64,000 nucleotides of DNA from Arenibacter certesii DSM 19833 (lineage in GTDB: Bacteria > Bacteroidota > Bacteroidia > Flavobacteriales > Flavobacteriaceae), in NCBI RefSeq assembly GCF_000429545.1, contig NZ_AUCB01000011.1:62001-126000 (forward strand). Direction: 5' to 3'. Positions 30,959 to 38,993 of this stretch are shown here, one piece after another. The notes under the pieces are model-generated. The model was not told the origin of the DNA. It saw only the letters and a list, made by a program, of their open reading frames with translations, and made no database searches. The position numbers were made by a program, and so were the translations under genes. Numbering within the stretch: the first letter of the stretch is position 1; every line of letters begins with the position of its first letter.

Positions 30959-33900
30959 TTAAATACCTATTTTCTGGTCTTCAACGGGAAGAAAAATATG
31001 GAAAGTAGCACCGACGCCCAATTCCCCTTTCGCGACAATTGCACCATTATGATTTTCTACTATCCTTTTTATAATGGCAAGACCAATCCCAGTTCCTGGA
31101 TATTCGTTTTTTCCATGTAGCCGCTGAAAAAGTTCAAAAATCTTATCGCTATACCGTTGATCAAAACCAATTCCGTTATCGGTTACCGAAATGCGGCAGT
31201 AGCTATGATCATCCATTAAATTTTCATTTTCTATGGTATTCCCCTTCACAATAGCAGTGCTTATTGTGATGCGTAGAGGTTCTTCTGTTTTAGCGAATTT
31301 TAAGGAATTAGTAAATAGATTGTGAAAGAGCTGTTGAATCTGAAAAGGAATTATATTTACCTCCCCACTAGTTTGAATATCAATGGTAGCATTTTTATCT
31401 AATAATTCTTCTCCAAGGTCATCTTCTACTCGTTCAATAATGCCTCTTAAAGCTACTTTTTTAAAATCTCCCTCTAGATTATGAGTTCGGGAATATGCAA
31501 GCAAATCCTCAATTAGTGACTGCATACGTTCGGCAGACGATTGCATGCGATTAAAAAGATCTAGACCGTATTCTGATAAGGAGTTGCTTTCTTTTTCTGC
31601 TATACGAGAGGCAAAAGTCTGAATTTTTCTTAGTGGCTCTTGTAGATCATGGCTAGAAATATACGCAAAAGATTGAAGCTCCTTATTCATTTTCTGAAGC
31701 TCATTATTTTTTTGTTCTAGTTCTATCTTTTTCTCCTGTAAAGCGTCATCGGCCTCTTTTTTTGCTGTTTGGTCCCGCGTAACTTTAGAAAAACCTATTA
31801 ATTTATTATTATTTCCATGTACAGCTGTAATAACGACACTTGCCCAGAATAGAGTTTTGTCTTTCCTAACCCGCCAGCCTTCTTGTATTGCTTGGCCGTT
31901 TTTTATAGCCTTTTTTAATAATTTTTGGGGTAGTCCACTTTTTTGATCTTCCTCTGTATAAAAGTTGGAAAAACTTTTACCAACAAACTCTTCAGCGGTA
32001 TATCCTTTGATTTTTTCTGCGCCAGCATTCCAGTTCTCCACAATCCCATCCTTATTTAGATATAGAATAGCGTAATCCTGTACTTCTTCCACCATAAGGT
32101 GGTAGCGTTGTTCACTTTCTTTTAAAGACTCATTTAGCTTAAGCAGCTCTGTGGTGCGTTCCCTAACTTGTTTTTCCAGCTCGTTTGTAAACATTTTTTG
32201 TTCTTGAATATCTGTGCTGGTTCCTACCCACATCGTTATTTCACCGTTTTCATTGAATTGAGGTCTTGCTCTACTCAATTGCCATCGATATTCCCCATCA
32301 TGACGATAAAAGCGGTGCTCTATTATAAAATCTTCACCAGAAGCAATAGATTTTTTCCATAATCTAACATTCTCTTCTCTGTCGTCTGGATGTACCATTT
32401 GTAACCACCCATCTTTTCTTATTAATTCTTGCGGAGTAAAACCTGAAAACTTAAATACAGATTGGTTAAAGTAATTTATATTGCCTTGCGGATCTGCAAT
32501 CCAGACAAATTCGGGCATGGAATCTGCTAGAAGTCTAAATTTCTGTTCGCTTTCCTCAAGTCTCTTTTTTGCTTCAATGTGCTCTGTAATATCAGTATTA
32601 CTTCCAAACCAATTGGAAATTTCGCCAGATTCATCATAAACTGGCAAAACACGTGTCAAAAATTGTCTATACCCATTATCAGCACCTTTAAGGGGAAATA
32701 TCATTTCAAATTCTTTTCTTGCTTTTAACGATTGCTGCCACTTCGCTAAAACTTCTTGTAAGTATTCTGGGTGAATTACCTTTTGCCAATTCCATCCTTC
32801 CACTTCTTCCAAGGTTGTACCTGTATAATCCTGCCATTTTTTATTATACCAATAAACACTTCCATTGGCATGAGTCATCCAGGCCATATTAGGTATGTTA
32901 TCTGCTATAGCACGCATTCGAATGGCACTTTCCTTTATTTTTTCTTGACCTCTTATTTGATCTGTAATATCAATAAGGGTGTTAATTACACCACTAATTT
33001 GACCATCATTATTATAAATAGGTTTGGGGTGTGGAATAAAATGCCGTCTGCTACCATTTGGTCTTTCCACCACAAGGATTGGGTTAGTTACCTCACCACC
33101 TTTTAAAGCATGTGACATTGGAAGATCTTCTGATAACACTGGATTACCTTCAAGAGTGAAAATCTTCCATGATCCGGACCATAAATCCTTCCCAATAGCT
33201 GGGGTGTGGCCCCATAACTTAACAGCAGCCTCATTGAAGAGTTGTATATATCCTTCGCTGTCACAGATATATAACGCTACTGGCAACCCATGAACTAAGG
33301 ATTTATATTTAGCTTCACTTTCTTCAATTGTTTTACGGATAATAACGTGATCGGTAACCTCTACACCAAGAGCCATAATCCCATCAATCTCCCCCTTAGC
33401 ATTTACTAGTGGTTCAAAGCTGAAATTAAGATAGATAGTTTCTAATTGTTGGTTTCTAAGTAGTTGTAGTTGATATTCTGATGCAGTAAAAATTTCACCT
33501 GTTTTAAATACCTGATCCACAATTTCTTTTATTCCTTGTGTTTTTAGCTCTTGCAAAACTTCTAAAATGGGTTTATCTTCTACCTCATCAGCAGTTCTGC
33601 CCCATAACTCCAATGCCTTGGAGTTTGCTATTTCTGTAATATGTTCACTGCCTCTAAATATCGCGATTGCCACAGGGGCTTGTCTTATCATGGAGCGTAA
33701 CAAATTCTCACTCTCCTGCAATTCTGTTTTGGCCTTTACGTTATCCGTAGTTTCAGTAAAGGTTATTAATGCTCCATTAACCTTGCCTTCATCATTAAAC
33801 GCAGCACTACAACAGAATGTCCAATATCTATTTTTTGATGCCTTGTTTGTAAGAAATGGCAGATTCTCATTATAATAGGAGACAGGTTTAGTTGTAGACA

Positions 33901-34225
33901 CTACTTCCTTTACCATTGGCCCTAATCGATTCCACATTTCTGGCCATGCTTCAAATCCCCTTTTGCCGATTACGGGATTCTTTTCTTCCCCTTCCAGATG
34001 TATCCTAAAAGCGTCATTATAAAAGCAGATATGCTCCTCTCCCCAAAAATAACACATAGGAAAGGCAGAGTGTAAAATCAAGCCAAGCGTGGAGCATAGG
34101 CTAGTGGGCCATTCTTTAATGTCACCCAATGAAGTTTTATCCCACTCTATTGATTTTATCAAGTCGCCCATTTCACCTCCACCATTGAGGAAAGTGAGTT
34201 CATCCCCTTTTAACGGTTTAGTCAT
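30959..34225 (-). CDS. Multi-PAS sensor histidine kinase
   Basis: A 1,088-residue kinase without transmembrane helices, hence cytoplasmic. About six PAS/PAC domains fill residues 20-840 (PAC ends are marked by repeats such as GALITFTETTDN, GVINTLIDITDQ, FGSNTDITEH, VGTSTDIQEQ and IGFSKVTRDQ). A coiled coil (EKKIELEQKNNELQKMNKEL) leads into the HisKA domain with phospho-accepting His859 in SYISSHDLQEPLRK, then the ATPase domain with N box FTNSLKF, G1 DNGIGF and G2 GTGIGLAI. This PAS-rich, phytochrome-like kinase type commonly pairs with an Rcp1-like receiver; such a gene lies 6 bases upstream. Ligands of the PAS domains are unknown. Confidence 0.92.
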   Translation of the reverse strand: MTKPLKGDELTFLNGGGEMGDLIKSIEWDKTSLGDIKEWPTSLCSTLGLILHSAFPMCYFWGEEHICFYNDAFRIHLEGEEKNPVIGKRGFEAWPEMWNRLGPMVKEVVSTTKPVSYYNENLPFLTNKASKNRYWTFCCSAAFNDEGKVNGALITFTETTDNVKAKTELQESENLLRSMIRQAPVAIAIFRGSEHITEIANSKALELWGRTADEVEDKPILEVLQELKTQGIKEIVDQVFKTGEIFTASEYQLQLLRNQQLETIYLNFSFEPLVNAKGEIDGIMALGVEVTDHVIIRKTIEESEAKYKSLVHGLPVALYICDSEGYIQLFNEAAVKLWGHTPAIGKDLWSGSWKIFTLEGNPVLSEDLPMSHALKGGEVTNPILVVERPNGSRRHFIPHPKPIYNNDGQISGVINTLIDITDQIRGQEKIKESAIRMRAIADNIPNMAWMTHANGSVYWYNKKWQDYTGTTLEEVEGWNWQKVIHPEYLQEVLAKWQQSLKARKEFEMIFPLKGADNGYRQFLTRVLPVYDESGEISNWFGSNTDITEHIEAKKRLEESEQKFRLLADSMPEFVWIADPQGNINYFNQSVFKFSGFTPQELIRKDGWLQMVHPDDREENVRLWKKSIASGEDFIIEHRFYRHDGEYRWQLSRARPQFNENGEITMWVGTSTDIQEQKMFTNELEKQVRERTTELLKLNESLKESEQRYHLMVEEVQDYAILYLNKDGIVENWNAGAEKIKGYTAEEFVGKSFSNFYTEEDQKSGLPQKLLKKAIKNGQAIQEGWRVRKDKTLFWASVVITAVHGNNNKLIGFSKVTRDQTAKKEADDALQEKKIELEQKNNELQKMNKELQSFAYISSHDLQEPLRKIQTFASRIAEKESNSLSEYGLDLFNRMQSSAERMQSLIEDLLAYSRTHNLEGDFKKVALRGIIERVEDDLGEELLDKNATIDIQTSGEVNIIPFQIQQLFHNLFTNSLKFAKTEEPLRITISTAIVKGNTIENENLMDDHSYCRISVTDNGIGFDQRYSDKIFELFQRLHGKNEYPGTGIGLAIIKRIVENHNGAIVAKGELGVGATFHIFLPVEDQKIGI

Positions 34226-34231
34226 AGCAAT

Positions 34232-34684
34232 CTAATTTTCAGGTTCAATAAGAAAGATTTCCTTTTTAGGTTGTAGGCCAATGTTAGCGGTAAGAAGAGA
34301 GATAGCCTTTTTAATTACCGTTTTTAAATCCGAAAAAGCCGCAGGTTTCCGAATATAATGGTGAGCACCTTTGCCATATAGCGTATCAATTACTTGGGGA
34401 TTGTTAGAGGTAGAATAGATTACCACGGGCAAATTTTTTAATTCCTCGCTCTGCTTTATTTCGGTTAAACATTCAAAACCTGTTTTACAAGGCATATTTA
34501 AGTCCAAAAAAAGAATATGTGGAAGATTGGTAAAATTATGCTGAAGATAATTCATTAATTCCACGCCATTATTCATTGTCTTTAACGATACGGGTAAAGT
34601 AAGTTCATCCAAAGCATCTTTGAAAAACATGCAGTCGTCCTCATCATCATCTGCGAGCATTATTTGTATATGGGCATTATTCAT
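34232..34684 (-). CDS. Rcp1-like response regulator paired with the PAS kinase
   Basis: A 150-residue single receiver domain. The acidic pocket is DDDEDD near residue 12, the phosphorylated Asp is in HILFLDLNMPCKTGFE, and the conserved Lys is in HYIRKPAAF. There is no DNA-binding output domain, as in cyanobacterial Rcp1 partners of phytochromes. It is the first gene of a two-gene unit with the multi-PAS kinase (6-base gap), so the two very likely exchange phosphate. Downstream output must be a protein interaction or a further phosphotransfer step. Confidence 0.9.
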   Translation of the reverse strand: MNNAHIQIMLADDDEDDCMFFKDALDELTLPVSLKTMNNGVELMNYLQHNFTNLPHILFLDLNMPCKTGFECLTEIKQSEELKNLPVVIYSTSNNPQVIDTLYGKGAHHYIRKPAAFSDLKTVIKKAISLLTANIGLQPKKEIFLIEPEN

Positions 34685-38222: not shown

Positions 38223-38744
38223 TTAATTGCAGAGACTACAATTAGACTCTCCCACCAACTTACCTTCAAGGTTCAATTCATATTTACAACATTCATTAAA
38301 TTTCTCAATGAGAAGGCGCTTAGCCCGTCTTATCCGAGCTTTCACATTGGCTAGACTAATTCCTATTTCGGAGGCTACGTCCTTCTGCTTCATTCCTTTT
38401 ATATAAACCATGGTAATTACCGATTTATATTCCTCGGGTAAATTGGCCAAAAAGCGATCAAAACAACATAAATCCAAATAACTTTCTGTTTGGACAATGG
38501 GAGCGTGATTAAGGTCTTGGACTATTTTACTCGACTTATTAAAATAATCATGGATTTCATTACGGACAATTTGAAATGCCCAAGCCTTTGCTTTTTCCCG
38601 GTTTTTTAACTGATGTATATTTTGATGAATTTTTAAAAAAGAATTTTGCATTATATCATTGGTAGTATCCCGATCATTTACTTTTTTAAGTATAAAAAAG
38701 TACATCTGACCATTATATTTATTCCATATGGTAGAAGTTTCCAT
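38223..38744 (-). CDS. sigZ: SigZ-like ECF RNA polymerase sigma factor
   Basis: A 173-residue extracytoplasmic-function sigma factor. Region 2 is at residues 5-75 (NDIMQNSFLKIHQNIHQL, KAWAFQIVRNEIHDYF) and region 4 at 100-155 (LPEEYKSVITMVYIKGMKQ, EIGISLANVKARIRRAKR). The C terminus carries the SigZ hallmark, a Cys-rich tail with CCKYELN and ESNCSLCN, which could bind metal or respond to thiol oxidation. No anti-sigma gene is adjacent. Instead, 48 bases upstream on the same strand lies a gene for a 14-cysteine peptide, so the two are probably co-transcribed. Target genes are unknown. Confidence 0.85.
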   Translation of the reverse strand: METSTIWNKYNGQMYFFILKKVNDRDTTNDIMQNSFLKIHQNIHQLKNREKAKAWAFQIVRNEIHDYFNKSSKIVQDLNHAPIVQTESYLDLCCFDRFLANLPEEYKSVITMVYIKGMKQKDVASEIGISLANVKARIRRAKRLLIEKFNECCKYELNLEGKLVGESNCSLCN

Positions 38745-38792
38745 TTCCTATTTTTAATGTTAAAGGTCGGATCTAAATCCAACCCTTTTTTT

Positions 38793-38906
38793 TTAACAAC
38801 AATCACATTTGCTACATTCGCACTTGTCACAGGGACATTTATTTTCTAGGCAGTTTCCACAATTACATTGTTTGCAGTCGCAATCGGTACATTTACAATT
38901 ATTCAT
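38793..38906 (-). CDS. Metallothionein-like Cys-rich peptide, 37 residues
   Basis: ATG at 38904-38906, TAA at 38793-38795. Fourteen of 37 residues are Cys, mostly as Cys-x-Cys and Cys-x-x-Cys pairs (MNNCKCTDCDCKQCNC, then CPCDKCECSKCDCC), with Lys, Asp and Asn between and no aromatic or large hydrophobic residue except one Leu. This composition is that of metallothioneins and would bind several Zn, Cu or Cd ions. It does not visibly match the classical SmtA or mycobacterial MymT pattern. It precedes the SigZ-like gene on the same strand. Coding is very likely because chance would not give such periodicity. Confidence 0.8.
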   Translation of the reverse strand: MNNCKCTDCDCKQCNCGNCLENKCPCDKCECSKCDCC

Positions 38907-38993
38907 ATCTAAATTGTTTAAGTTCTATATAAGTAGACCGATAAACTTATAAAAAGATACAAATTATTTACTATTTTTTTAATCAGGAAAAGA

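Follow-up and report, generated by a model that had tools for sequence, protein, structure and literature searches.

In many flavobacteria, a mini-gene encoding a cysteine-rich peptide is followed directly by the gene of a SigZ-like ECF sigma factor, and the two are conserved together as a unit. The unit was analysed in Arenibacter certesii DSM 19833, within a stretch of 64,000 nucleotides of contig NZ_AUCB01000011.1 (positions 62,001 to 126,000), referred to as the window; coordinates below are those of the window. The reading favoured here, with a probability of roughly 0.6, is that the two genes constitute a self-regulated operon for the buffering of metals or metalloids.

The two genes of the unit

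The mini-gene is found on the minus strand at 38793-38906. The encoded peptide, denominated type A, reads MNNCKCTDCDCKQCNCGNCLENKCPCDKCECSKCDCC and has 14 cysteines in 37 residues, organized in two halves of seven cysteines each and alike in spacing (CxCxxCxCxxCxCxxC and CxCxxCxCxxCxCC). Small in size, Cys-dense (38%) and with CxC and CxxC spacing, it has the outward features of a metallothionein in the functional sense of the term. Full-length frames retaining all 14 cysteines are present in 15 of the 18 genomes of the genus. The search with this single query covered 60 genomes, and none of the 42 outside the genus was matched. Among the 15 genes of the genus, differences at codon positions 1, 2 and 3 are 330, 386 and 1475, respectively; pN is 0.10 and pS 0.70 (uncorrected values, obtained by pooling every pairwise comparison among 15 related sequences). 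TGT and TGC are switched at 11 of the 14 Cys columns with no Cys ever replaced, and the non-Cys positions are selected as well (pN 0.18, pS 0.58). A frame devoid of protein selection had been indicated beforehand as ground for dismissing the proposal; the invariant cysteines and a pN of 0.10 against a pS of 0.70 denote that selection is present. The 37-residue frame is a real protein gene, because of its conservation in 15 of 18 genomes, the codon switching, and a pN much lower than pS.

Type A peptides (24 aligned) measure about 36-41 residues. All their 14 Cys columns are invariant, and neither His nor aromatic residues are found in any of them. A second type, denominated B, has 11 cysteines in 33-36 residues (30 aligned), and again every Cys column is invariant. 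No match to Pfam or NCBIfam was obtained at E<=10 for the scanned peptides; that of the window was part of this set, and gave no match at E<=1 in a separate NCBIfam scan either. The family is missed by the models of both collections.

The mini-gene is separated by 48 bases (38745-38792) from the sigma factor gene (38223-38744, minus strand), which encodes a protein of 173 amino acids. Sigma-70 regions 2 and 4 were both identified above cut-off (PF04542, 39.4 bits; PF08281, 54.4 bits) and no match to region 1 or 3 was found in the Pfam scan, which places the protein among ECF sigma factors. The top NCBIfam models are those of SigZ, TIGR02959 and NF007215. Since the scores are under the curated cut-offs of both (128.9 vs 168.65, and 137.8 vs 212, respectively), the protein is not a member of the SigZ equivalog. 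Six cysteines are invariant in 15 orthologues: the CC pair at residues 93-94 (codons at 38463-38468), in the linker just before region 4; the CC pair at residues 152-153 (38286-38291), where the last helix of region 4 ends; and the C-terminal CxxC at residues 169-172 (38229-38240). In a larger alignment of 71 rows the cysteines of the CC...CxxC array are at least 90% conserved. The AF2 model, built on 71 sequences (pLDDT 81.7, pTM 0.42), predicts sigma2 and sigma4, joined by a linker of low confidence, and a tail forming a short strand-turn-strand between CC152-153 and the CxxC; it does not fix the placement of the tail relative to the rest of the protein.

The unit is flanked by genes encoding the RlmF methyltransferase and a deaminase, as assigned by Pfam and NCBIfam, and no metal gene adjoins it among the neighbouring frames scanned. 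The re-reading of the sequence agrees with the original prediction on several points, namely a peptide of 37 residues and 14 cysteines at 38793-38906, a gap of 48 bases, a sigma factor ending with CC (residues 152-153) and the terminal CSLCN, and the lack of an anti-sigma gene next to it. Elsewhere in the window, a multi-PAS-like sensor kinase of 1088 aa (30959-34225) and an adjoining single-domain response regulator (34232-34684), both on the minus strand, were read from translations.

Association of peptide and sigma genes

The sigma gene is directly downstream of the peptide gene in all the 15 genomes of the genus that have the latter. The three that lack the peptide (G010, G011, G017) are also without a close sigma, as their best matches score 50.7, 47.7 and 88.4 bits vs at least 205.9 in all the others. 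Fifteen loci hosting other, weaker sigma matches of the genus (L031-L045) served as control, and the script filter found no Cys-rich short frame at any of them.

Sigma genes were further searched with a profile of the 15 genus sequences, which matched 106 of 397 genomes of the family at E<=1e-22, and with TIGR02959, which matched 92 of 395 genomes of the phylum at E<=1e-25; at most the eight best candidates per genome were scored in either search. The family search supplied 27 loci outside the genus and 80 of 84 further places (G305, G432, G136 and G087 were left out), and the phylum search supplied 30, among the matches listed. Together with the 15 genus loci, and once five duplicates were removed, these make up a set of 147 SigZ-like loci. 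The sigma factors ending with a GxLxG..CxxC tail are 87, and 86 of them have a mini-gene of type A or B directly upstream. Peptide and sigma types are matched, type A peptides accompanying type A sigmas and type B peptides type B sigmas. The lone exception is L059, where no peptide is found in the 500 bases upstream of the sigma gene; by resemblance, we take this interval to contain a stretch similar to a tRNA and a GIY-YIG-like frame. The other 60 SigZ-like sigmas have different tails. According to the script filter, two of them have a mini-gene upstream (L086, L094), five have one downstream (L087, L088, L089, L095, L192), and 53 have none. The mini-genes at these seven loci are unlike types A and B, and accompany distant SigZ-like genes, mostly from other families of Bacteroidota. 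It had been proposed to look for a short Cys-rich frame near other SigZ genes throughout the Bacteroidota. The expectation holds for GxLxG..CxxC tails (86 of 87 loci, always upstream), and proved too wide for the other tails, 53 out of 60 being without peptide.

A maximum-likelihood tree was built from 138 sigmas of the 147 loci, using 6 of the 15 genus rows and a midpoint root only. A branch (98/89) separates the sigmas paired to type A or B peptides from the others; on their side, 77 of 78 rows are paired and L059 is the sole unpaired one. The pairing thus looks like one ancient event, kept over deep divergence, rather than the result of many independent gains; with a single ancient origin the pairing counts are therefore not to be regarded as independent events.

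Named genomes were also scanned at the DNA level with a nine-Cys pattern, with no reference to the sigma factor, and at least 80 loci were found. The listed matches reading as a type A peptide are four (Aequorivita lipolytica, A. aurantiaca, Salegentibacter sediminis and Pontibacter sp.), and it is these four loci, and no other of the 80, that have a SigZ-like frame, in each case just downstream. Individual inspection of the other listed matches covered six short frames having a start codon, all of low complexity.

Putative regulatory sequences

A promoter-like site, TGTATCTTTTT-N12-GTCTACTTA, was identified by pattern searches and conservation upstream of the peptide gene, at 38930-38961 on the minus strand. 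It includes the -35-like element TGTATC (38956-38961) and the -10-like element GTCTAC (38933-38938). Sites of this ECF type, TGTATC-N17-GTCT with a run of Ts after the -35 element, are found at a median distance of about 54 bases from the peptide start. The strict form is present within 150 bases in 15/15 units of the genus, 13/20 other type A units and 47/51 type B units, as well as at L086 and L094. The relaxed form is found in 84 of 88 units (genus, 15/15; other type A, 19/20; all the rest, L086 and L094 included, 50/53). Frequencies in base-shuffled upstream regions were 0.06% for the strict and 0.2% for the relaxed form. The -35 consensus follows the sigma types, being TGTATC in type A and TGCATC in type B units. 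None of the three forms (strict, loose, relaxed) occurs at the 17 testable loci in which the peptide is found without the sigma gene (one of these, L405, has just 127 bases upstream). As site and sigma occur together, and the former is missing where the latter is, the sigma factor itself probably uses the TGTATC-N17-GTCT site of its own operon. The strict form is found also upstream of 5 of 54 SigZ-like genes without peptide, and the site is for this reason no proof of pairing.

The extended pattern TGTATCYTTTTN12GTCTMCTTA, searched in the 18 genomes of the genus with up to two mismatches, detects all the 15 operons and six other places. The genome hosting the window has a single match, at this operon. 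No site was found in the 18 genomes when the pattern was reversed. A shorter pattern gives 13 perfect sites in the same genomes, all at this operon; at one mismatch the sites are scattered, and one of them is elsewhere in the window genome. Matches to a pattern with a 16-base spacer do not exceed the level of the reversed control. A wider regulon, made of weaker sites, may exist.

A conserved stem-loop with a stem of 11 bp is located between the peptide stop and the sigma start, at 38762-38787 on the minus strand (-13.7 kcal/mol, folding z -4.5). In an alignment of 28 type A units, selected from a total of 35, the pairing holds while the sequence varies. As many as 99.3% of the 270 cells are paired, and 7 of the 10 pairs changed on both sides, in a total of 28 cells. 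The controls gave 0/500 for shuffles, and at most 61.5% paired cells when the alignment was slid. No obvious stem was noticed by eye in four (L058, L061, L062, L063) of the seven units left out of the alignment. Strong folds in the 60 bases following the peptide stop (z<-2 vs base shuffles) are found in 14/15 units of the genus, 17/20 other type A and 47/53 of the rest, and in just 1 of 17 loci without sigma gene; accordingly, the hairpin belongs to the two-gene unit. It may be a partial terminator keeping the sigma factor low relative to the peptide, an attenuation that is unsure because some of the hairpins have a weak T-run. RNAalifold, which returns one structure per run, predicted no conserved alternative pairing in 14 sequences. 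The promoter-like site and the hairpin, conserved and shared, support the original idea that peptide and sigma factor are made together.

Peptides without sigma genes and sigma genes without peptides

When the same 397 genomes were searched starting from the peptides (E<=0.001), 25 had a type A and 68 a type B match. Compared with the list of the sigma search in the family, a type A sigma is present also in 23 of the 25, and a SigZ-like match in 51 of the 68. In 19 genomes (17 with type B, 2 with type A) no frame fitting the SigZ profile is found in the 3-5 kb covered at the peptide match. Several matches of this set are weak, with E values up to 5.5e-4, and one is interrupted by a stop; at L408 and L417 the peptide was not found again by the script, and the two were dropped, leaving the 17 loci used in the tests above. 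Genome size is 1.3-2.2 Mb in 12 of the 19. Three loci, L404, L407 and L411, feature the same gene order as the sigma-bearing L068 except for the absence of the sigma gene, and because of this collinearity the gene was probably lost in place. The peptide left behind is complete in cysteines (11) at L411, one short at L404 (ten) and three short at L407 (eight). In another genome (G087, L422) the peptide is followed by a truncated sigma frame. The finding of peptides with no sigma gene nearby argues that the peptide may work on its own, the sigma factor being its switch, and that it is probably not merely a regulator of the sigma factor.

Genes for carbonic anhydrase, amidohydrolase and metallo-beta-lactamase-fold proteins, found near several sigma-less type B peptides, had been considered as a link to zinc, and were dropped as support. 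The amidohydrolase gene is part of an old syntenic block found also beside sigma-bearing units; amidohydrolase and AsnC genes flank many type B units by synteny, and provide no functional support. In two genomes of one genus (L409, L415), both without sigma gene, the peptide is located behind cation-efflux and metallo-beta-lactamase-fold genes on the same strand. The cation-efflux neighbour is what remains of the zinc link, a weak one.

The neighbours of the 53 SigZ-like genes without peptide (L059 aside; loci within L073-L102 and L195-L233) were surveyed by scanning 102 of 145 frames. ArsI/CadI genes are found at 9 loci, arsenite methyltransferase (ArsM) genes at 7, and ArsP_1 permease genes at 4. 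An ArsR/SmtB regulator is encoded beside one more gene (L083), so that metal(loid) neighbours amount to 21/53 by locus. The ArsI/CadI cases are not all independent, since six of the nine loci come from one family (f38); of two scored singly, one was under its cut-off. The one ArsP_1 permease scored singly was under the NCBIfam cut-offs for SaoE and Cu/Zn efflux. Fifteen of the 53 loci feature a PhzF-family gene (L099, L197, L200-L203, L205, L208-L210, L212, L214, L217, L219, L224). Their sigma factors form one branch whose tail has lost the CxxC, with the PhzF neighbour present at all its loci (15/15), which speaks for another role of this branch. At one locus (L211) the neighbour is distantly like bacillithiol/mycothiol enzymes (63.7 bits, cut-off 195). 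Judging from the ArsI/CadI, ArsM, ArsP_1 and ArsR/SmtB neighbours, several branches of the SigZ-like group, not every one, have a metal(loid) context. A SigZ-like paralogue is present in four copies in one genome of the genus (G002, contigs C3, C13, C14 and C15; L034), each scoring 104.1 bits and falling into two pairs of equal offset. The copies are perhaps a repeated mobile element.

Functional interpretation

In the favoured reading, the sigma factor would be inactive or weakly active at rest, with no anti-sigma gene involved. Thiophilic metal ions, candidates being Zn, Cd, Cu and trivalent As, would switch it on by binding to the set of cysteines formed by the linker CC and by the CC and CxxC of the tail. 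Once active, the sigma would bring RNA polymerase to its own operon, at the TGTATC-N17-GTCT promoter. As the peptide gene comes first, and the hairpin after its stop would cut read-through to the sigma gene, the peptide would be produced in excess, and by chelating the metal it would put an end to the signal. Buffering and sensing of metals are suggested by the metal(loid) genes found beside sister SigZ genes and by the published precedent of CorE. The original prediction envisaged a functional unit responsive to metals or thiols. The functional link between the two genes is supported by selection and by the 86/87 pairing; the metal or thiol chemistry is what we infer beyond it. A broader proposal is put forward tentatively, its odds being somewhat short of even. 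The sigma factors of these units may form a single-target class, each having a lone promoter from which a single Cys-rich peptide and the sigma itself are made, in a ratio governed by an RNA attenuator, as a metal-buffering loop that limits itself, and the SigZ-like sigmas of Bacteroidota may be thiophilic metal(loid) sensors free of anti-sigma, in which the partner gene (peptide, ArsM, ArsI/CadI, efflux) has been exchanged.

The main rival to a metal(loid) buffer is a thiol-stress version of the circuit, unlikely in our estimate and still the one to be taken most seriously. The operon logic would be the same, but stress by disulfides or electrophiles would be what the cysteines of the sigma factor sense, and the peptide would act as a thiol sponge, not as a store of metal. 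Cys pairs and CxxC fit disulfide chemistry as well, no His is found in 24 type A peptides, and the L211 neighbour resembles, at 63.7 bits and under the cut-off of 195, enzymes of bacillithiol/mycothiol. However, the Cys columns are invariant in 24 type A and 30 type B peptides, as metal clusters would need, and many neighbours of sister SigZ genes are metal(loid) genes. Strict linkage and the matching of types (A-A, B-B) could also suggest that the peptide binds the sigma factor directly, as a small anti-sigma or a metal-donating partner, and is no buffer at all. This we hold to be improbable, given the 19 genomes in which a peptide match, weak in a few instances, has no SigZ-like frame in 3-5 kb, and the otherwise collinear L411 and L404, where the sigma gene is missing and 11 and ten cysteines, respectively, are kept.

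A comparably low chance is given to attenuation by a leader peptide, according to which Cys codons and hairpin would make up a sensor of cysteine starvation for the sigma gene, the peptide product being idle. A series of Cys codons and, between it and the next gene, a hairpin resembling a terminator are what such a device would look like. Yet the Cys spacing is invariant and selection acts on non-Cys positions too (pN 0.18, pS 0.58), RNAalifold, with its single structure, predicted no conserved alternative pairing in 14 sequences, and the peptide occurs without the sigma gene, 16 of 17 such loci having no strong fold after the stop. That the frame is an accident, Cys-rich by chance and located beside an unrelated sigma gene, could be thought of because it is very short and fits no family model; conservation and substitution pattern refute this, linkage is also against it, and hardly any weight is left to the idea. 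The metal(loid)-buffering operon is retained as the preferred reading.

In the literature surveyed by title and beginning of abstract, with most subscription journals outside the scope, no paper was found dealing with SigZ of Bacteroidota in connection with arsenic, metallothioneins or Cys-rich peptides, and no signal for SigZ-like sigma factors was encountered. If the metal(loid)-buffering reading is true, SigZ-like sigmas would gain a testable signal and a target, a peptide family missed by Pfam and NCBIfam would be added, and metal sensing by sigma factors without anti-sigma, of which CorE is the precedent, would be widespread in flavobacteria. The unit is smaller than 1 kb and looks self-contained, so that its logic is directly testable.

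Relation to known systems

Known metallothioneins include SmtA (PF02069), MymT and the fungal Cu-MT. The window peptide is similarly very short, has 38% cysteines in CxC and CxxC spacing and, as the 24 type A peptides aligned, lacks aromatic residues. It differs from the described metallothionein families because no Pfam or NCBIfam model matches it at E 10, and because type A has no His. SmtB is a repressor controlling a metallothionein; in the proposed reading the peptide would be placed, in contrast, under a sigma factor. The window sigma is like SigZ in that TIGR02959 and NF007215 are its top NCBIfam models, and unlike SigZ in that it scores under both cut-offs and belongs to a tree group of its own, with a linked peptide.

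The closest parallel in regulation is provided by CorE and CorE2 of Myxococcus xanthus (ECF238, formerly ECF44), in which, as in the window sigma, the C terminus is extended by a Cys-rich stretch and the linker bears a Cys motif (PMC8999054, PMC3107203). CorE is an ECF sigma factor in which both the Cys-rich tail and the CXC of the linker are required for the response to copper (PMC8999054, PMC3107203). By term count, the word metallothionein is absent from both papers. The tails are different, as the window sigma has 4 cysteines in the 22 residues from C152, and the CorE extension 6 in 38. The CorE-like group is defined in PMC8999054 by a CXC motif in the sigma2-sigma4 linker; the linker motif of the window sigma is CC (residues 93-94), and for this reason the protein is not filed as CorE-like, in spite of the similar layout.
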